In this document: positions 51,740 through 61,911 of the stretch, one piece after another | Layout of the letters: every line of letters begins with the position of its first letter | Position numbering within the stretch: the first letter of the stretch is position 1 | Assembly (NCBI GenBank): GCA_017634975.1 | Contig: JAGBMJ010000004.1 | Location: forward strand, 52,502-116,501 | Origin: Lachnospiraceae bacterium | Lineage (GTDB): Bacteria > Bacillota > Clostridia > Lachnospirales > Lachnospiraceae | DNA: 64,000 bases | Direction of reading: 5' to 3' | The notes under the pieces: model-generated | Seen by the model: the letters and a program-made list of their open reading frames with translations, nothing else | What the model was told of the DNA's origin: nothing | Databases searched by the model: none | Translations under genes and position numbers: made by a program

Positions 51740-52717
51740 ATGGATAAAGGGATCGGACAGATGGAACCGGTAGAGGAGATATGCCGTGAATTTATACAGG
51801 GCAGGATAAGCCGGGCATCTTTGATCGGAGACGGACGCATCAATGATACCTTTTGCGTGAAGGCGGGGGAGGAGAGTTTTATCTGCCAACGCATCCAAAG
51901 GAAGATGGATACCGATATTCTGGAACATAATTATCTTTTGTACTCCGCTACGCTCGACAGTGTAAAACTGGCTTATCCAAAATGGTTGCGAGATCGTGAC
52001 GGCCGTTTTTTTTATACGGACAGCAGAGGGGATCGCTGGAGAATGTATCCCATGATCGGAGGAACGGTGCTGCAGGCACCGCTTCCGGAAGAGACATTGT
52101 TTGCCTGCGGACGGGCACTTGCAGGAATCCACGCGGCGCTGCAGAGAATGACGGAAAAACCGAAAGCTGTGTTTCCGATGCTTCACGATCTGAGGTATTA
52201 TTATAAGAAGTATTTATGGGTGCTGGAACACGATCTGTCCGGCGAAGAAAGGGATCCGGAGCTGGAACAGTATTTTGCTTCCGGGATAGAAGAATTTCGG
52301 AACCTGCAGACAGACCGGACGGCAGTGATCCATGGCGATCCGAAACTGGCGAATATACTGTTTTCGGAGGGAAGAGTCAGAGCATTTATTGATTTGGATA
52401 CGGTCATGCCGGGGGCGGTGATCGAAGATATTGCCGATTGCATCCGTTCGTGCTGCGTCCGAAAAGGAAAGCTCGATACCGGCGCTCAGCAGATCTTTTT
52501 GCAAGGATATCAAAGTGGAGATAACGGACTTTTGACCGGGAAAGATCTGAAATGCTTACCGCAGGTGATCCGGAAGATCCGCTTTGAACTGGGACTCCGA
52601 TACTATACGGATGCGATAGCGAAAGAGAAAAACTTCAGGGAAAAGTACCCGGGATACCTGCTGGAGAAAGCAAAGGAAAACTGTTCAGGAGCTTTGGAAG
52701 GCAATATTTACTTGTGA
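51740..52717 (+). CDS. Aminoglycoside-phosphotransferase-fold kinase
   Basis: 325 aa. The APH/choline-kinase-like catalytic site is clear: VIHGDPKLANILF near 197-209 (catalytic Asp) and FIDLDTVMPG near 217-226 (metal-binding Asp). The N-lobe begins near residue 30 (GRINDTFCVKAGEESFICQ). The closest functional group by pattern is the sugar/N-acetylhexosamine or homoserine kinase-like APH proteins rather than true aminoglycoside enzymes. Substrate unknown. Confidence 0.82.
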   Translation: MDKGIGQMEPVEEICREFIQGRISRASLIGDGRINDTFCVKAGEESFICQRIQRKMDTDILEHNYLLYSATLDSVKLAYPKWLRDRDGRFFYTDSRGDRWRMYPMIGGTVLQAPLPEETLFACGRALAGIHAALQRMTEKPKAVFPMLHDLRYYYKKYLWVLEHDLSGEERDPELEQYFASGIEEFRNLQTDRTAVIHGDPKLANILFSEGRVRAFIDLDTVMPGAVIEDIADCIRSCCVRKGKLDTGAQQIFLQGYQSGDNGLLTGKDLKCLPQVIRKIRFELGLRYYTDAIAKEKNFREKYPGYLLEKAKENCSGALEGNIYL

Positions 52718-52977
52718 GGGGACGGGGAAATGGTAATCGAAGTAGGAATTTGACCATGCACTACAGAAACCTGTTCCTCGGCGTCTGCACGGGCGTTTGT
52801 GTGTTTTGTTTTGCCAGAGGCTATGGCTATATCTTCGCCACCGGGAAGATCATGAAACAGAGGATGTGAGAAAGTTTCTGGACGAGAATCATATCGAACT
52901 TGATATATATGCCTGGTGAGAACACCGGAGCAGATATGTCGGAGAAAAGGGTATGGCACCATGGGAGGAGTATGGAT
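52718..52977 (+). other. 260-bp gap with degenerate coding remnants
   Basis: No complete gene is supported. Short frames without ribosome sites include one ending DENHIELDIYAW and stop at about 52916, which looks like the C-terminus of a lost protein. A partial GGGGACGGGG resembles the edge of the dispersed palindrome but lacks its arms. Confidence 0.5.
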
Positions 52978-53457
52978 ATGGACGAGGAAGAAAGAAAACG
53001 GATCCGGGAAGAATGTAATCGTATGGCAGAAGGGGAGAATCTACCTTCCGGGTTAAACGAGATCAATATGATGGCGGTTTATGCCGGACCGACGCAGATG
53101 GAGAATATCGGAAGTATGATGATGGTCTATGCCGGACCGGTGCCGATGGATAAAAATCCGATCGGTTTTATGAAAATGGCAGAGATGATGAAGGCACAGA
53201 GTCCGGATGAGGGAAAAGAAAATCCAGGAAACGGTGCAGCGGCGGAGAAAAAGCAGATCCGAAAGGGAATCTATTGTGTGTGTCACGGATGCGGGGCCTG
53301 TGTTTCGACAAAGTTTTGCCCGGAATGCGGAACGCCTCTTGCGAATGCAGAGAAATACAAGGACTGCCTGATGTGCGGGACACGTCTATCTGCCACGGAT
53401 AAGTTTTGCAGGGAATGCGGCGCACTGCAGGATGCGGAAGGAGCCATAAAGGTGTGA
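52978..53457 (+). CDS. Zinc-ribbon protein with two VYAGP motifs (possible radical-SAM substrate)
   Basis: 159 aa from ATG 52978, the start best spaced from GGGAGGAG 52963-52970; in-frame ATGs at 52972 and further up exist. Residues 1-28 are an acidic leader-like helix. MMAVYAGPTQM (31-41) and MMMVYAGPVPM (47-57) are two similar segments 16 residues apart. After a Glu/Gly/Asn linker come Cys-rich zinc ribbons (CVCHGCGAC, KFCPECGTPL, CLMCGTRL, KFCRECGAL). It lies 4 bp before a SPASM radical SAM gene, so the repeats may be modified by that enzyme. Function unknown. Confidence 0.65.
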   Translation: MDEEERKRIREECNRMAEGENLPSGLNEINMMAVYAGPTQMENIGSMMMVYAGPVPMDKNPIGFMKMAEMMKAQSPDEGKENPGNGAAAEKKQIRKGIYCVCHGCGACVSTKFCPECGTPLANAEKYKDCLMCGTRLSATDKFCRECGALQDAEGAIKV

Positions 53458-53461
53458 TGGG

Positions 53462-54472
53462 ATGACAGAGTACAGATTGCGCAGTGCGGTGTGGGAGATC
53501 ACGCTGGCGTGCTGTTTTTCTTGTGAGTATTGCGGCAGCGGTGGCGGAAAGGCACGGGAAAATGAGCTGCGTACAGAGGAATGTCTGGAACTGGCAGATG
53601 CGCTGGCTGCGCTGGGATGCAGACGGGTCTCTCTGATCGGAGGAGAGGTTTTTATGCGACCGGACTGGAAAAGTATCGTAAAGCGGCTGATCGAAAACGG
53701 GATCGCAGTATGTATCATCAGTAACGGATATATGATCGATCAGGCGCTGGCTGCGGAGTTGAAACAGCTTGGTATCGAGTCTCTGGCGCTTTCACTGGAT
53801 GGGTCGGAAGCGATCCATGACCGTTATCGTCAGACCGGAAGTTTTAAGTATGTAAAGAGAGCATTGGGCGTGTTGGCGAATGCCGGTGTACTGACCTCCG
53901 TGATCAGTACTCTGAATGCGGAGAATGAAAAGACACTGGAAGAACTCTACGGATTTCTGCTCGATTATCCGATCTTTGCCTGGCAGCTGCAGGCGTGTCT
54001 GCCGATGGGAAATGCGGCCAGGCGTGGCGTGGACCATCGTTTCGATGTGAATCGTGTGATACGATTTGTGGACGAACATGCGGATGCGCCGTTTGCGCTG
54101 GGCATTGCTGATAATATAGGTTACTTTACGCCGGAAGAAGGATCGCTTCGCGGAAACCGAAGCGGCAAGGCTTTTTTTATCGGCTGCCAGGCCGGGATCA
54201 GTCAGCTCGGGATCGACAGTGTGGGAAATGTTAAGGGGTGTGAATCTCTCTATGACGAACGCTTCCTGGAGGGAAATGTCCGGGAGCGCAGTTTAAGTGA
54301 GATCTGGAAGGATCCGGAAGCCTTTGCTTACAACCGGAAATTTCGTGAAGAGATGCTCACGGGGAAGTGCGCTGTTTGTGAAAAAAAAGGGGCATGCCGG
54401 GGTGGATGCCGGTCTATGGCTTTTTTTGCCGGCGGCAGAATGTACGAAGCGCCCTACTGCGCCCGTTCTTAA
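53462..54472 (+). CDS. Radical SAM/SPASM domain enzyme
   Basis: 336 aa. The radical SAM Cys-x3-Cys-x2-Cys motif is at 17-24 (CCFSCEYC), which binds the 4Fe-4S cluster that cleaves SAM. SLIGGEVFMRPDW near 58-70 is the Gly-Gly-Glu motif. The C-terminal SPASM/twitch part holds further cysteines: FIGCQAG near 240, GCESLYDE near 258, and CAVCEKKGACRGGCRS near 305-320. SPASM enzymes modify peptides or proteins, which fits the VYAGP protein directly upstream. Confidence 0.92.
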   Translation: MTEYRLRSAVWEITLACCFSCEYCGSGGGKARENELRTEECLELADALAALGCRRVSLIGGEVFMRPDWKSIVKRLIENGIAVCIISNGYMIDQALAAELKQLGIESLALSLDGSEAIHDRYRQTGSFKYVKRALGVLANAGVLTSVISTLNAENEKTLEELYGFLLDYPIFAWQLQACLPMGNAARRGVDHRFDVNRVIRFVDEHADAPFALGIADNIGYFTPEEGSLRGNRSGKAFFIGCQAGISQLGIDSVGNVKGCESLYDERFLEGNVRERSLSEIWKDPEAFAYNRKFREEMLTGKCAVCEKKGACRGGCRSMAFFAGGRMYEAPYCARS

Positions 54473-54529
54473 GGAGAACGTGGGGACGAGTCATGTGTTT
54501 TTTGAAAAAAGCAGGAAGGAGTGAAGATT

Positions 54530-55114
54530 GTGACAAAACTGGCGGTATTGTTTCCGGGAATCGGCTATAACGGTGACCGGCCGCTGTTATATTATGGAAG
54601 AAAGCTGGCGGAGAAGAACGGATATGCGTGTAAAGTACTTCCCTACGTGTATAAAGGAGATCGTCACATTCGCGGGAATGTACAGAAAATGGAAGAAGCT
54701 TTTCAGAAACTGTATGAACAGGCACGGGAGTATCTTGCAGATGTGGATTATGAATCTTATGATGAAGTACTCTTTGTATCCAAGAGCGTCGGAACGGTGA
54801 TCGCAGCATCGTATGCAAAGAAACTGCAGGAGAATGGGATCATGTATGGGACCGGAGAGAAGGCAAAGCTTCGGCACATTTTCTATACACCCCTGGAGTA
54901 TACGTTCCGATATGAGCCGGAAAACGCGGTCGGATTTTTGGGAACAGCCGATCCATGGTGTGTTCCGGAGAATGTGATCAGGATCGCGAAAGAAAGGAAT
55001 GTGCCGATGCATGTGTATGAAGGAGCAGACCATTCTCTGGAGACAGGTGATCTTTCGGCAGATCTGATGATCTTAAAAGATGTGATGGAAAAGACCGCTG
55101 TGTTTATCGGATAA
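54530..55114 (+). CDS. Alpha/beta-hydrolase superfamily protein
   Basis: 194 aa from GTG 54530 with AAGGAG 8 nt upstream. AVLFPGIGYNGDRPLLYY is at the start, a serine elbow-like VSKSVGTVIAASYA near 84-97 (Ser in SKSVG), and the His in GADHSLE near 170. Follows the radical SAM gene after 57 bp in the same direction and may belong to the same unit. Confidence 0.7.
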   Translation: MTKLAVLFPGIGYNGDRPLLYYGRKLAEKNGYACKVLPYVYKGDRHIRGNVQKMEEAFQKLYEQAREYLADVDYESYDEVLFVSKSVGTVIAASYAKKLQENGIMYGTGEKAKLRHIFYTPLEYTFRYEPENAVGFLGTADPWCVPENVIRIAKERNVPMHVYEGADHSLETGDLSADLMILKDVMEKTAVFIG

Positions 55115-55129
55115 CAGGAGGCATATATC

Positions 55130-56821
55130 GTGAATCGTTTGGAGCAGCTGTTGCGGGAGACGGATCATAAGAGTTATCCCGCATACAAATCCCTGAAGGG
55201 AAAATATACGTTTGCAGGGTATGTCCTGTCGGTCGATCATGTACAGGGGGATCCCTTTGCGGCGCCGTCCTCTTTGAGCATCCATTGCAAGGCGGCACAG
55301 CACGGATTTCCGGAGGAATATTATCTTAAGCCGCATCGCTGCGTGATGCTGTGCGATTATCTGCTGCGCGGTTTCGGACGCATTCTGCGGTCCTATTCCG
55401 GAAAAGCCGGTGGTTCCGGCAAGAGCGGCAGTCTGTTTGTGAGTATCCCCGGGCAGGAAGTGCTGAAACGCTCGGCACTTACCATAGATCCCAAAAGCGG
55501 GGAGCTGGTGCTGCGCTTTTCAGCAGGTTTTCCGGCAGCAGGGCGGACAACGCTTTCTATGGAGCTGCGCAAGATGCTGATGGAATATGTTCCGGCCTGC
55601 GTGGAAAAAAGCCTGCGCTTTACGGCAGTAAACAGGGAAGAACTGAAGCACTGGATCACGCTGGCGGATGAACAAAAAGCGATCCGGGAGCAGTTATCGG
55701 AAAAGGGACTTGTTGCCTTTGTAGCAGATGGTGCCATACTGCCGAGATCTTCCGGCGTGGACGACAGGCCTATGAAGGGAGCGGTTGTTTTTGAGAGTCC
55801 CGGAGAAGACCGGGTAGAGCTTGCACTTCCGGGAGGAGGGACGATCAAAGGCATGGGGATCCGTCAGGGGATAAGCCTGATCGTCGGCGGCGGTTACCAT
55901 GGAAAATCCACATTGCTCAAAGCGCTGGAGCGGGGTGTCTATGACCATATCCCGGGAGACGGGCGGGAGTATGTCATCACCGAGAGCAGTGCGATGAAGA
56001 TCCGTTCCGAGGACGGACGCAGTGTAAAACAGCTGGATATCAGTCCGTTTATCCGGAATCTGCCGAACAAAAAGGATACGCGGAATTTCAGTACGGAAGA
56101 TGCCAGCGGCTCGACCTCTCAGGCAGCGGCTACGGTGGAAGCGGTGCTTTCCGGCAGTCATACGCTGCTGATCGACGAGGATACTAGTGCGACCAACTTT
56201 ATGGTGCGGGATAGCCTGATGCAGAGCGTGATCCATCCGGAGCAGGAGCCGATCCTTCCGTTCCTGGCGAGGATGCGGCAGCTCTACGAGCAGTTCGGAG
56301 TATCGACGATCCTGGTGGCGGGATCGTCCGGGGCATTCTTTTCCGTGGCGGATGCCATCGTGCAGATGAAGGAATATCTGCCGGTCAATATCACGGCGCG
56401 GGCAAAAGAAGCCGCCGGAGCGGAGAGGGCGTGTGAGACGCCGCCGGAACCGCTGGGGAAATGGGAGGATCATCGCATTCCGAGGCAGAATAAGGAGATT
56501 ACCGAAAGCCGCCGGATCAAGACCAGAGGAAACGGAACGGATCACGTATCCCTGAATCACGAATCCGTGGAACTGCGTTTTGTGGAGCAGGTGGTGGATC
56601 ACGAGCAGACCAATCTGCTGGCAGCTATGCTTCGTACGCTGGAAGAACAGTATTTTGACGGGCGAAGACCGCTTCCGGAATGTGTGGATGCTCTGTATCG
56701 GCGGCTGCAGACGGAAGGGTTTACGGCGGCATCCACAGGCAGTATTCCCGGTAATCTGGCAATGGTGCGTCTGCAGGAATTGTGGGCCATGGTGAACCGG
56801 TACCGATCTCTGAAAGTGTGA
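55130..56821 (+). CDS. ABC-class ATPase of the PF09818 type
   Basis: 563 aa from GTG 55130, AGGAGG 8 nt before. The N-terminal ~240 residues include YAGYVLSVDHVQGDPFA-like sequence typical of the family. The P-loop is GGGYHGKSTLLKALERGVYDH near 254-274, with DISPFIRNLPNKKDT and EDASGSTSQAAATVEAV near 305-345 and a Walker B LLIDEDTSATNFM near 345-357. The C-terminal part is basic and helical. These proteins are soluble predicted ATPases of unknown role. It starts 15 bp after the hydrolase, so the run 52978-56821 may be one operon. Confidence 0.85.
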   Translation: MNRLEQLLRETDHKSYPAYKSLKGKYTFAGYVLSVDHVQGDPFAAPSSLSIHCKAAQHGFPEEYYLKPHRCVMLCDYLLRGFGRILRSYSGKAGGSGKSGSLFVSIPGQEVLKRSALTIDPKSGELVLRFSAGFPAAGRTTLSMELRKMLMEYVPACVEKSLRFTAVNREELKHWITLADEQKAIREQLSEKGLVAFVADGAILPRSSGVDDRPMKGAVVFESPGEDRVELALPGGGTIKGMGIRQGISLIVGGGYHGKSTLLKALERGVYDHIPGDGREYVITESSAMKIRSEDGRSVKQLDISPFIRNLPNKKDTRNFSTEDASGSTSQAAATVEAVLSGSHTLLIDEDTSATNFMVRDSLMQSVIHPEQEPILPFLARMRQLYEQFGVSTILVAGSSGAFFSVADAIVQMKEYLPVNITARAKEAAGAERACETPPEPLGKWEDHRIPRQNKEITESRRIKTRGNGTDHVSLNHESVELRFVEQVVDHEQTNLLAAMLRTLEEQYFDGRRPLPECVDALYRRLQTEGFTAASTGSIPGNLAMVRLQELWAMVNRYRSLKV

Positions 56822-57683: not shown

Positions 57684-57911
57684 ATGAGTACCAAGGAACG
57701 AGCATATGAAATATTTTCAAAAATGGATGAAAAACAGTTAGAAGGCTTTGTTACTATGTTCGGAATCTATTTTCCTGAAACGACAGAAGAGAAAGAAATT
57801 GATGAAAGAACCAAAGCATTTCGTGAACTTGAACAGATGACACATCCAATATTGGATTTGGATTATGATAAGGAATTGGCTGAGTATAGAAATGCGAGGT
57901 ATAGGGTATGA
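57684..57911 (+). CDS. Antitoxin-like protein of a PIN toxin pair
   Basis: 75 aa with GGAGGTG 8 nt before ATG 57684. It begins MSTKERAYEIFSKMDEKQLE and has an acidic, probably disordered C-terminus that could wrap the toxin. The last 4 bp overlap the PIN gene (ATGA), the usual antitoxin-first arrangement. No HTH or AbrB fold is obvious; antitoxin identity is from context. Confidence 0.7.
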   Translation: MSTKERAYEIFSKMDEKQLEGFVTMFGIYFPETTEEKEIDERTKAFRELEQMTHPILDLDYDKELAEYRNARYRV

Positions 57912-58333
57912 AAGTATTGATCGATACAAATATAATACTCGATTATCTCACGAAAAGGACACCGTTTTATGATCCGGCATATGCTCTTATGGAAATGTGC
58001 AGATCAGGGGAAGTGGTAGGATACATTGCTGCACATTCTGTGATGAATTGCTTCTATATTCTGAGAAAGGAATATACAGAGGAGGAAAGAAGAGAAATCC
58101 TGATCAGGTTTTTAAAACTGGTTTCAGTGGTAGGAATTGACAGAAGTAAGATATCATCGGCATTAAGAAGAAAAGAATTCAGCGATATGGAAGATTGCTT
58201 GCAGGATGAGTGCGCTGATACTTGTGGAGCGGAGTATATCATTACAAGAAACATTAAAGATTTTGATCAAAGTACGGTTAAGGCGATTTTGCCGGAAGAT
58301 TTTGTCAAGATGATGAAAAAACAGAAACCATAG
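57908..58333 (+). CDS. PIN-domain ribonuclease toxin (VapC-like)
   Basis: 141 aa. PIN acidic residues are visible: Asp6 in VLIDTNIILDYL, Glu near 29 region (ALMEMC), Asp in FSDMEDCLQDECA near 93-105, and the closing Asp in IITRNIKDFD near 112-121. PIN proteins cleave RNA (often tRNA or rRNA) with Mg2+. Coupled to the upstream antitoxin-like gene. Confidence 0.88.
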   Translation: MKVLIDTNIILDYLTKRTPFYDPAYALMEMCRSGEVVGYIAAHSVMNCFYILRKEYTEEERREILIRFLKLVSVVGIDRSKISSALRRKEFSDMEDCLQDECADTCGAEYIITRNIKDFDQSTVKAILPEDFVKMMKKQKP

Positions 58334-58750: not shown

Positions 58751-60259
58751 ATGGCTTATGAAGAATTCAGTCTGCTGGATCTGGAACCGAAAGCAGGAGA
58801 ACCCGGACAATTCCGGCTCTTTTATCAGGATCTGAATCTGGACCGGGTGATCGAGAGACTGACGAGAGACTGGGGAAAAGGGATCCGAAAATACTACGGA
58901 TATCTGCCGGTGACGCCGAAGGAGGTGGCTTACCGGCAGGCGGTATATTCCGATGTAAAAAAGCCTGCGGTACAAGATGCGTTGAAGCAATATGTGGAAG
59001 ATATGACCGGCGCCGAGCGGATGCGGGAGAAAAAAGGCAAGGTCTATGAAGACGCGCAGAAGGCGGTCTGGCATCTGCGGGAGATCATTTCGTATTGTCT
59101 TGCTTATGAAAGACTCTGTGAAGGTCTTGCGAAGTGCAGTCTGTCTTCCGATGGGATGCAGGACTTTTGGCGGATCCTGAAAGAGATACTGGAAGAGGGC
59201 GGCTACCGTAAGCTCCGGGAAGAGGCGCAGGCACTTCTGCAGAGACTGAAAGAACTGCGTTTTATCATTACCTATGAAAAAGACCGGATCTCGGTAACCT
59301 GCGGAGAACTGCCGGGGGACGGCGCATATGCGGAGATGCTGCGGAATAAGACCGGAGGAGAACTGCACCGTCCGGTCAATCCGTTTCGTTCCGAACCGGC
59401 CATCTGTGAACTGGAGAAGGCATGTATCGAGATCCTGGAAAAGAAACGTCCGGATATCTTCCGGGAGATGAAGGACCTGGCATACAAATGGTGGGAGTAT
59501 GAAGTGCCGGTACTGAAGCGCTTTGATGAGGAGATCCGTTTTTATCTGTCTTATCATGATCTGCAGCAGGAAATGCAGGAAAAAGGATTTTCTTTTGCGA
59601 CACCGGAACTTTCGGAGGATCGGACCATGGAGGCGCATGATCTATACGACATCGCGCTTGCCGTGGCGTCACTTTACAGCGACCGTAAGATCGTGTGCAA
59701 CGATCTTACGTATCAACCGGGAGAACAGTTCTTTGTTCTTACGGGACCCAATCAGGGTGGAAAAACAACCTTTGCAAGATCTCTCGGACAGCTCGTTTAT
59801 TTTACACGCATGGGATTGGATGTGCCGGCAGCTTCTGCGCGGCTTCCGTTTTTTCCGGATATCCAGACACATTTTTCCGTGGAGGAAAGTGTAGAGACGG
59901 GGAAAGGAAAACTCAAGGAAGAGCTGACCAGACTGGCCCCGATGATGGAGTCACAGAAAAAGGGAACGTTTATCATCATTAATGAACTGTTTACCACAGC
60001 GGCCAGTTATGACGCACAGATCATGGGACGGCGTGTAATGAAGCACTTTATCGATCTTGGATGTATGGGGATCTATGTGACGCACATTGCGGAACTGGCG
60101 GCGGAAGATGATGGCGTGGTAAGTCTGCGGGCGATGCTCAATGACCAAAAGATCCAGACTTATAAGATAAGGCGCGGGGAACCGGACGATACGGCATGCG
60201 CAGAAAATCTGGTGAGCAAATACGCTCTGACCTATGAGCAGTTAAAGGAGCGCTTATGA
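58751..60259 (+). CDS. MutS-like ATPase, first of a tandem pair
   Basis: 502 aa. The N-terminal ~290 residues are helical (lever/clamp-like) and there is no mismatch-recognition domain. The MutS-type ATPase is at about 310-480, with Walker A TGPNQGGKTTFARSLG near 332-347, HFSVEESVETGKGKLKEEL (the D-loop region), Walker B FIIINELF and VTHIAEL. The Walker B Asp is Asn. It overlaps the next MutS-like gene by 4 bp. Role uncertain: possibly recombination or stalled-fork/ribosome work like MutS2 relatives rather than mismatch repair. Confidence 0.82.
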   Translation: MAYEEFSLLDLEPKAGEPGQFRLFYQDLNLDRVIERLTRDWGKGIRKYYGYLPVTPKEVAYRQAVYSDVKKPAVQDALKQYVEDMTGAERMREKKGKVYEDAQKAVWHLREIISYCLAYERLCEGLAKCSLSSDGMQDFWRILKEILEEGGYRKLREEAQALLQRLKELRFIITYEKDRISVTCGELPGDGAYAEMLRNKTGGELHRPVNPFRSEPAICELEKACIEILEKKRPDIFREMKDLAYKWWEYEVPVLKRFDEEIRFYLSYHDLQQEMQEKGFSFATPELSEDRTMEAHDLYDIALAVASLYSDRKIVCNDLTYQPGEQFFVLTGPNQGGKTTFARSLGQLVYFTRMGLDVPAASARLPFFPDIQTHFSVEESVETGKGKLKEELTRLAPMMESQKKGTFIIINELFTTAASYDAQIMGRRVMKHFIDLGCMGIYVTHIAELAAEDDGVVSLRAMLNDQKIQTYKIRRGEPDDTACAENLVSKYALTYEQLKERL

Positions 60260-61911
60260 AAGTATGCCTCTTATACAAAGACAGAGAAAAAGCAGACGGT
60301 GCGGCCTATTACGATACCGTAAGTATCGTAAAGGATCTCGGCCTGAAAACAATCTTTCTGAATGCGGCCAAACGGCTGGTGTATGAAGGCAAAAAAATCA
60401 AAAATCTGGAGCAGGAAGATCCGTTTCTGATGGATACGCTGAAGACGGTTATGATGACGCCGCTGGCGAATGCGGAAGAGATCTGCTACCGGCAGGAGAT
60501 CATCAATGACTGTATCTTCCATGAAGAACTGATCCGTTCCCTGTATGAGACCGGCAAAAATGTACAGTTAAAGAGCGACGAGCTGATCCGGGAATACAAG
60601 GATAAGAGTATCAAAGGGAATCCGGTCACGAAACTGATCAACGAGATCCGGATCCTGCATCTGCTGCAGGATTCCCTTGCGGCAATACGTCAGCTTCTGG
60701 AAAAACAGAAGGAACGTTTTACATCCGAAGGGCTGCTGCGTTTTCAGGAGGATTTTTTTGCGGCATGGCCAAAGGAAAGAGAGGAGTTTGTCGGATCGGT
60801 GCTGGCGGATCTGTCTTTTTATACCGGTGGTGTGGATGATGCGGATCAGGGACGTAACCGGCTGGTACGGCCTAGGATCGTTTTGGAATGCGGTCTGGAA
60901 GACGGTCTGAAATTCAGCACGATGAAACTGGAAGAACTGTCCTCGGGCAGCACGAGGTTTGTAAAGCCCGGCGGCACGCTGTTTAAAATACAGGAGTATT
61001 TTAACAGCCGCGTGCAGGATTCTTTTTCCACGCTGGAGGATGAGCGGATCAACGAGCAGGCGCATCAGCTCGAATACGGGATCGTGAATTATGTAGTGGA
61101 GCAGCTGAAGGACGAACTGATGGAATTTAAGCCGTTCTTTGACAAGCTGCGCTATCAGACTGCGTTTTATCTGGCAGCCGTACAGCTGGCGCGTCATTTC
61201 GAACGCATCCATATGCAATGGTGTTTTCCGAAGGTATGTGACAGGCGGGATCTGAAATTTGCGGAACTGAAAGAATCGGTCCTCGGATTGAGCCGGCTGG
61301 AGGATGTGGTCGGCAATGACTGCGAACTGAATCAGAAGGATATGGTGATCATCACGGGAGCGAATCAGGGCGGGAAATCCACATTTTTGCGCAGCATCGG
61401 GATCGCCCAGGTGATGATGCAATGCGGACTTATGGTAACGGCAACAACCTATCACAGCGGGATCTTCCCTCGGATCTTTGTGCATTTTACGCGAAGGGAA
61501 GACAGTCAGATGAACAGCGGGCGTCTGGATGAAGAACTGAAACGTATGAATAAGATCGTTGAGCAGATCGGAGACGGAAGTCTTCTGTTCCTGAATGAAT
61601 CGTTTGCGACGACAACCGAGAAGGAAGGGGCCGGGATCGCTTATGATATCGCAAAGGCGCTTTGTAAAGCAGGCGTAAGGATCATGACGGTCACACACAT
61701 TCTTGCGTTTGCACGGCGCGTATATAAAGAAAATAAGGAAGAGCCGCTATCTGCGGTGGAATTCCTGACCGCGGAACGTACGGAGGACGGAAGCCGTACG
61801 TTCCGTATGATACGGCATGAGCCGGAAGAGACCAGTTTCGGACTGGATCTGTATGATGAGATCGTGGGGCAGAAACTGCGAAAGGATGCAGAAGGGCATC
61901 ACCGAAGATAG
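60256..61911 (+). CDS. MutS-like ATPase, second of a tandem pair
   Basis: 551 aa. Same architecture as its neighbour but clearly diverged: helical N-terminal half, then Walker A TGANQGGKSTFLRSIG near 372-387, FTRREDSQMNSGRLDEEL near 412-429, Walker B SLLFLNESFATTTEKEG near 439-455 (Asp again replaced by Asn) and VTHILAFA. The overlapping start (ATGA) and parallel layout suggest the two proteins form a heterodimer. Confidence 0.82.
   Translation: MKVCLLYKDREKADGAAYYDTVSIVKDLGLKTIFLNAAKRLVYEGKKIKNLEQEDPFLMDTLKTVMMTPLANAEEICYRQEIINDCIFHEELIRSLYETGKNVQLKSDELIREYKDKSIKGNPVTKLINEIRILHLLQDSLAAIRQLLEKQKERFTSEGLLRFQEDFFAAWPKEREEFVGSVLADLSFYTGGVDDADQGRNRLVRPRIVLECGLEDGLKFSTMKLEELSSGSTRFVKPGGTLFKIQEYFNSRVQDSFSTLEDERINEQAHQLEYGIVNYVVEQLKDELMEFKPFFDKLRYQTAFYLAAVQLARHFERIHMQWCFPKVCDRRDLKFAELKESVLGLSRLEDVVGNDCELNQKDMVIITGANQGGKSTFLRSIGIAQVMMQCGLMVTATTYHSGIFPRIFVHFTRREDSQMNSGRLDEELKRMNKIVEQIGDGSLLFLNESFATTTEKEGAGIAYDIAKALCKAGVRIMTVTHILAFARRVYKENKEEPLSAVEFLTAERTEDGSRTFRMIRHEPEETSFGLDLYDEIVGQKLRKDAEGHHRR

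Follow-up and report, generated by a model that had tools for sequence, protein, structure and literature searches.

The 64,000-nt window analysed here (contig JAGBMJ010000004.1, positions 52,502 to 116,501, of the Lachnospiraceae bacterium assembly GCA_017634975.1; completeness 99.13%, contamination 7.46%) carries on its forward strand a gene for a small protein with a repeated tyrosine tag, followed directly by a gene for a radical S-adenosylmethionine (SAM) enzyme. Coordinates given without a locus or contig handle are those of the window. The first gene (52978..53457, of which 52978-53454 is the coding part and 53455-53457 the stop codon) encodes 159 aa, which its translation and homologues mark as a predicted substrate; the Shine-Dalgarno-like GGGAGGAG (52963..52970) can be read in the sequence 7 nt ahead of the ATG at 52978. 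The two tags, MMAVYAGPTQM (residues 31-41, 53068..53100) and MMMVYAGPVPM (residues 47-57, 53116..53148), precede a Cys-rich C-terminal double zinc ribbon (residues 102-148, 53281..53421) that matches Pfam Zn_Ribbon_1 above its cut-off (5.1e-7) and DZR just under it (5.4e-6; 26.9 bits, cut-off 27.3). No signal sequence is seen by eye, no predictor having been run, and the protein is apparently unexported.

The enzyme gene starts 4 nt after the tag-gene stop (53462..54472) and encodes 336 aa matching Pfam Radical_SAM (1.9e-25) and SPASM (1.6e-7). NCBIfam models and a tree place the enzyme in a splicease-like group that we name the YA clade. Alignment locates its CX3CX2C radical SAM cluster motif, CCFSCEYC with the clade-specific C18, at 53510..53533, and alignment and Pfam a SPASM region at 54185..54460 with seven Cys (C242, C260, C303, C306, C312, C316 and C333). 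The initial annotation, made from the sequence alone, had described this pair as a protein with two MMxVYAGPxxM segments and Cys-rich zinc ribbons lying 4 nt ahead of a SPASM enzyme, and translation and Pfam bear it out. The acidic leader-like helix that it also described is no conserved leader: an alignment of 11 tag proteins showed constant tags and ribbon Cys with variable N-termini and spacing.

Homologues were collected by enzyme searches, without selection for the tag, of the genus, 392 genomes of the order, 397 of the family (cut 1e-100), 19 of a second family and 398 of the phylum. The YA clade is well separated, its members being 57-81% identical to the window enzyme, with the next matches in the order sample at 39% and the sole other match in the phylum sample (cut 1e-60) a 37% relative. 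It comprises 32 loci, which span 57-100% identity (12 from the genus, 9 from the order sample and 11 from the family sample; G and L numbers below are our handles for genomes and loci), one enzyme being broken by a stop (G353, L104). A locus was scored as paired if an open reading frame (ORF) of at least 30 aa holding [VAILMT]Y[AG][AGPS]P lay within 400 nt of the enzyme. This held for 30/32 loci; all 30 ORFs overlap the enzyme gene or lie within 100 nt of it, and 29 share its strand. The pattern was set after the loci had been seen, with T added for L164, and the count without T is 29/32. The tag gene follows the enzyme in L169 and L105, lies on the opposite strand in L172 and is cut by the contig end in L103 and L072. 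For the two loci without a tag ORF (G025 and G021), tag genes sit on other contigs. The same rule found nothing at 53 control anchors, genes of 250-420 aa from the window and 15 fetched stretches (0/53), one of 12 loci of a Firmicute group of related enzymes with X-Y-G tags (the XYG group; L113, opposite strand) and 2/9 loci of TIGR04133-like enzymes (L064, L068). Among 205 background ORFs of at least 80 aa, one held the pattern, itself a clade enzyme (L045). The surroundings of the loci mostly differ; by eye, L040, L043 and L047 share ribosomal-gene surroundings, L041 and L042 a gene alongside, and L107, L108 and L111, all from a single genus, have transporter genes beside them that the others lack. 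No other candidate substrate common to the loci read was seen.

Within the genus, enzyme and tag protein occur together. A search of 60 relatives, whose assemblies are often in hundreds of contigs, gave homologues of the 159-aa protein with 2-6 YAGP copies in ten same-genus genomes, to which G024 and second genes in G001 (contig C257, L154) and G029 (contig C43; the Mbeg1-like protein L155) were added later. Across 35 genomes of the genus, 11 have both partners, one the tag protein only (G019), none the enzyme only and 23 neither, with agreement between a tag-protein profile search, the enzyme search and the DNA pattern M-x-[VA]-Y-A-G-P; of the lower-scoring profile matches, L083 (G024, tagged) and L084 (no tag) were read individually. 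Elsewhere that pattern fell in one MEAYAGP or MVAYAGP of a protein that we read as FkbH-like (6 genomes) and in stray short ORFs (2). The repeat tail of L155 runs off its contig end and the same repeats open the contig of L072, which carries a second enzyme, so that the two are inferred to be one gene in G029. A tag-protein search of the contigs of named relatives returned three zinc ribbon matches only. The genome search for VYAGP repeats beside radical SAM genes that the initial annotation had proposed gives a pairing that is conserved beyond what chance would bring. VYAGP proteins without a radical SAM neighbour, which it had named as counter-evidence, do occur in part: 4/14 genus tag genes adjoin no enzyme (G025, G021, G019 and G001:C257), three of these in genomes with the enzyme elsewhere. 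Because the pairing holds in 30/32 loci and the partners co-occur across the genus, the VYAGP segment is the likely modification site, as had been suggested.

The tags sit in varied proteins, in 1-6 copies each. In 34 tag proteins (including the fragment L103 and the cut L155) the xYxxP strings are VYAGP 57 times, AYAGP 15, VYAAP 8, VYAPP 6, VYGGP 4, LYAAP 4, VYNGP 3 and the rest at most 2; these sequences hold 101 pattern copies, where shuffling gave a total of 0.445, a circular comparison as the proteins had been picked by motif. The four VYGGP copies, literal X-Y-G strings, are spread over G028, G146 and G001:C257, in each of these proteins amid VYAGP copies. Zinc ribbons in the same chain, a combination that matched none of the classes of ribosomally synthesised and post-translationally modified peptide (RiPP) familiar to the initial annotation, are common but not required: a strict CxxC...CxxC ribbon occurs in 24/34 and, by eye, a variant in three more (G024, G486 and G453). 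Other scaffolds are a protein kinase and FHA domain with a single VYAAP between them (L110), a flavodoxin-like FMN_red protein (L102), an Mbeg1-like hydrolase (L155), an open frame that joins CobB/CbiA-type domains to tags and ribbon (L047) and, by eye, a common N-terminal domain of unrecognised type (L041, L042 and L154). The second enzyme of G029 is followed by a ThrGluValLeu-rich repeat protein, a Ser/Thr kinase with a ribbon, and PASTA and TPR proteins. A further motif, YPx[NS][YFHLAE], is present in 17/34 tag proteins (e.g. L106, L107, L167, L168 and L170) against 0.575 expected in shuffles and 2/205 background ORFs; most genus tag proteins, that of the window included, lack it, and to call it a recognition element is a guess. 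Many YA-clade enzymes themselves carry a tag-like C-terminal [LM]YE[AS]P, at 54440-54454 in the window enzyme and as LYGSP in that of L045.

Of the NCBIfam models none reaches its cut-off with the window enzyme. The best is TIGR04103 (231.3 bits, cut-off 725), which we take to be the family of PlpX; then come TIGR03913, the GDL maturases (203 bits, cut-off 591.75), and the mycofactocin maturase (138 bits, cut-off 265). TIGR04103 and TIGR03913 also lead in 8/8 XYG-group enzymes scanned, in reversed order in one. A tree of 42 rows, rooted on TIGR04133-like enzymes, included 20 of the 32 clade enzymes, leaving out the half-length L111 and 11 of the family sample; it gave the YA clade (100/99) as sister to the TIGR04103/GDL rows (93/83), with the XYG group (97/94) outside and with long MftC and Tropicibacter rows. 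The Tropicibacter oceani plasmid enzyme (L160, 2677-4296), in the TIGR04103/GDL part, itself carries a zinc-ribbon-like segment at the N-terminus (a weak Pfam match, E 0.0075). Models and tree together lend moderate support to TIGR04103 as the closest described family. SPASM domains follow a rule of cysteine spacing; in the 21/32 clade enzymes that were aligned, the three cysteines of CX3CX2C and the seven of the SPASM region are all invariant where covered. C18 (within the cluster motif), C41, C53 and C179 are conserved in the clade as well, C18, C41 and C179 in 21/21 and the fourth in 95%, at positions usually held by another residue in the sister groups. W11, Q175, Q177, M182, Y221, G241 and G259 are kept at 90% or more in all three groups and recur in no more than one of the seven rows outside them. 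By sequence the nearest solved structure, not a close one, is SkfB (6efn, 1.7e-13).

The system that most resembles ours is PlpA/PlpX/PlpY. The excerpted text of PMC10533398, PMC11002830 and the review PMC10373908 describes PlpXY as excising tyramine at X-Y-G and rejoining the chain as an alpha-ketoamide; the first two, as excerpted, add that it acts on some foreign proteins carrying a short tag, the second assigns PlpX to IPR026482, and the excerpted review counts spliceases among the few enzymes making beta-residues inside a translated protein. Ours likewise has a SPASM enzyme, from that region of the tree and with TIGR04103 as best model, an adjoining gene for a small protein, and tags of the form X-Y-small-x-P, but Y-A in place of Y-G, a zinc ribbon or unrelated domains in place of a Nif11 or NHLP leader, and clade-specific cysteines. 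Named anchors for the comparison came from tblastn of plasmid records (10 records). The Nostoc sp. C057 enzyme (853 bits, over the TIGR04103 cut-off) is accompanied by a Nif11 precursor with ALYGLPPELF at its end and, downstream, by a 71-aa gene; those of Azospirillum and Aureibacter stand beside DUF1843 peptides with LYGGA, PYGVA and MYMAT, and LYAAG, MYAAS and PYGAG; that of Agathobacter rectalis goes with a 68-aa ORF without annotation ending VMYGTGVRM. The GDL/DUF1843 system shares Y-A with ours, its peptides holding LYAAG, MYAAS or PYGAG near the N-terminus; it differs in having short peptides with one such string each and no zinc ribbon, and in having been found here on plasmids of Pseudomonadota and Bacteroidota. 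The window tag protein contains no DUF1843 domain.

The enzymes of the XYG group (L112-L121, L173 and the Agathobacter plasmid NZ_CP143948) share 35-39% identity with ours and also go with tags on varied scaffolds, SLH and dockerin proteins included, whereas their tags are X-Y-G and they are longer at the C-terminus (384-516 aa). Clear XYG-repeat neighbours stand in 6/12 loci (L112, L113, L116, L118, L120 and L121); the L116 enzyme adjoins a 315-aa protein (491-1438 of L116) with ten KYGYP strings. TIGR04133-like enzymes have lipoprotein-like neighbours with nearly the same tag, VYGPPEYFDE (L068) against VYAGPEYFEKK in one of our tag proteins (L167), but are distant (the window protein scores 124 bits) and, by eye, their neighbours begin with a lipoprotein-like signal; two scanned from the same genus score 262 and 270 bits against a cut-off of 425. 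Three of the VYGPPE, VYGIP or EYGV proteins at L065 (G000:C127:8664-9602), L064, L066 and L068 resemble M15 peptidases at the C-terminus by eye, and Pfam confirms this for one of them.

The explanation that we favour, with a probability of about 0.52, is a Tyr-directed, splicease-like action on V-Y-A-G-P tags. The two genes would be an enzyme-substrate pair, the SPASM enzyme recognising V-Y-A-G-P tags in an otherwise ordinary protein and acting on the Tyr; excision of tyramine would leave alpha-keto-beta-amino residues at the tag. Such a tag would be portable, as the same enzyme clade adjoins tagged proteins of the zinc ribbon, kinase-FHA, flavodoxin-like and Mbeg1-like types; at a guess from these scaffolds, it might give a resident protein a joint that is reactive or withstands proteases. 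Pairing, motif and clade are, at the level of sequence comparison, plain; that the tag is modified is highly probable; that the enzyme rewrites the protein backbone there appears most likely, and that it does so by tyramine excision has an even chance. Tyramine-type splicing is put foremost because the related enzyme groups, where a motif is seen, adjoin X-Y-G or X-Y-A proteins, and because VYGGP stands amid VYAGP copies in three tag proteins. Docking of the enzyme through the zinc ribbon or the YPxN motif seems rather unlikely. Tentatively, the wider picture could be that of a portable backbone-editing tag, with which a splicease-related clade would rebuild the backbone of resident proteins at V-Y-A-G-P, as beta-amino residues or otherwise, for cell physiology and not in a secreted peptide; the clade would then have a Y-A specificity and extra cysteines that the related enzymes compared here do not show.

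Several observations count against splicing, and the estimate was lowered because of Ala (rarely N or M) after the Tyr, the four cysteines found only in the clade, the want of a Nif11 leader or recognised partner, and the VYGPP neighbours of TIGR04133-like enzymes. Tyr is followed by Ala in 97/101 pattern copies, and by N or M in four more, where PlpX uses Gly; the window tags, V-Y-A, lack the X-Y-G splice motif, which VYGGP supplies only in the four copies of relatives. Only zinc ribbon or zinc finger-type models match the window tag protein, none for a Nif11 or NHLP leader, and no gene of the PlpY type, a RiPP recognition element (RRE), was recognised beside the enzyme by eye, an RRE profile not having been run. 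The enzyme lies far under the TIGR04103 cut-off, its sister relation falls under the starred support level in a tree that does not hold PlpX itself, and the four cysteines hint at a different chemistry. The other six XYG-group loci show no clear XYG repeat, with a single doubtful neighbour in L119 and none by pattern in L114, L115, L117, L156 (an MYG string without the Pro) and L173. The TIGR04133-like enzymes, meant as a neutral outgroup and control, failed as a control: they stand beside VYGPP, VYGIP or EYGV proteins in 4/9 loci, so the Tyr motif is wider than the spliceases and by itself no pointer to one.

Ala after the Tyr and the invariant C18, C41 and C179 would also suit another radical reaction, in which those cysteines might take part: a Val-Tyr C-C bond as in mycofactocin, loss of the side chain, a crosslink between tags or epimerisation. 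The mycofactocin maturase MftC, a SPASM enzyme and the third NCBIfam model, targets Tyr and the neighbouring Val according to the excerpted PMC8326336. Its substrate MftA ends in Val-Tyr (...GVY), whereas the Tyr of the window tags is internal; it works with a partner, MftB, and is distant in the tree, models and tree placing our enzyme nearer TIGR04103/GDL, and Gly at Tyr+2 offers no side chain for a short crosslink. We regard this as possible, if distinctly less probable than splicease-like action. A thioether (sacti- or ranthipeptide) reading was rejected, the cysteines belonging to the zinc ribbons and the tag core being Cys-free.

The tag might instead be an unchanged docking peptide, with the zinc ribbon protein a partner of the enzyme in delivery, assembly or electron transfer and the substrate elsewhere. 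The genus tag genes away from the enzyme, G019 with its tag protein and no close enzyme, the frequent ribbons and the tag-like ends of several clade enzymes all fit this, but 1-6 copies on scaffolds as unrelated as kinase-FHA and Mbeg1-like proteins resemble sites more than a dedicated partner, and the loci read offer no other common substrate; we consider it improbable. Accidental adjacency, with repeats produced by low-complexity drift, could appeal to the Met- and Pro-rich stretches between the tags of the genus proteins; it is already contradicted by the adjacency at enzyme loci and its absence at control anchors, the circular shuffle pointing the same way, and has next to no likelihood. 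The locus is a tag-and-enzyme module related to the spliceases: the initial annotation was right on the pair and the Tyr tag, while its leader-core RiPP layout found no support, since no common leader, exporter or peptidase was seen and, in the loci read by eye, no classical RiPP export or protease gene goes with the precursor.

Judged against NCBIfam, Pfam and the open literature searched, the module is new in its tag and scaffolds; part of it may be in print already, the main spliceotide survey lying outside that comparison. Searches of the open literature found nothing that joins zinc ribbon, radical SAM and precursor or RiPP, nothing on TIGR04133, TIGR04134 or VYGPP, only a protease review for spliceotides in Lachnospiraceae with radical SAM, and, among the matches listed, unrelated items for YAGP; for the DUF1843/GDL motif, the excerpted text was uninformative on chemistry. 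If true, backbone editing would be in use inside ordinary cells, through a clade with another recognition sequence beside signalling-like and housekeeping-like domains; this would also provide a new tag for labelling, five residues long at its core, and raise the question of what use an alpha-ketoamide is to a kinase-FHA or zinc ribbon protein. Two small genes suffice to put the prediction to a direct test.

Downstream of the enzyme lie an alpha/beta hydrolase (54521-55114; Pfam Abhydrolase_11 exactly at the cut-off, 27 bits) and an ATPase (55130-56821; Pfam ABC_ATPase PF09818, 3e-119), which the initial annotation had counted as parts of the locus. They were set aside as not being conserved neighbours: a blastp comparison with 13 longer stretches matched neither, the short-flank loci being judged by eye only. 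Further on, a small gene and a PIN-domain-like gene (57684-58333) resemble by eye a toxin-antitoxin pair, and two neighbouring genes (58751-61911) have the look of MutS-like ATPases, the first matching Pfam MutS_V (8.9e-17) and scoring 61 bits with the KamC aminomutase reactivase model (cut-off 300), the second called by eye. Upstream, the APH-like kinase of the window (51740-52717) has a 58% homologue near the enzyme, in a different gene order, in the closest relative (G025, source of L070; 2397-3422 of L070).

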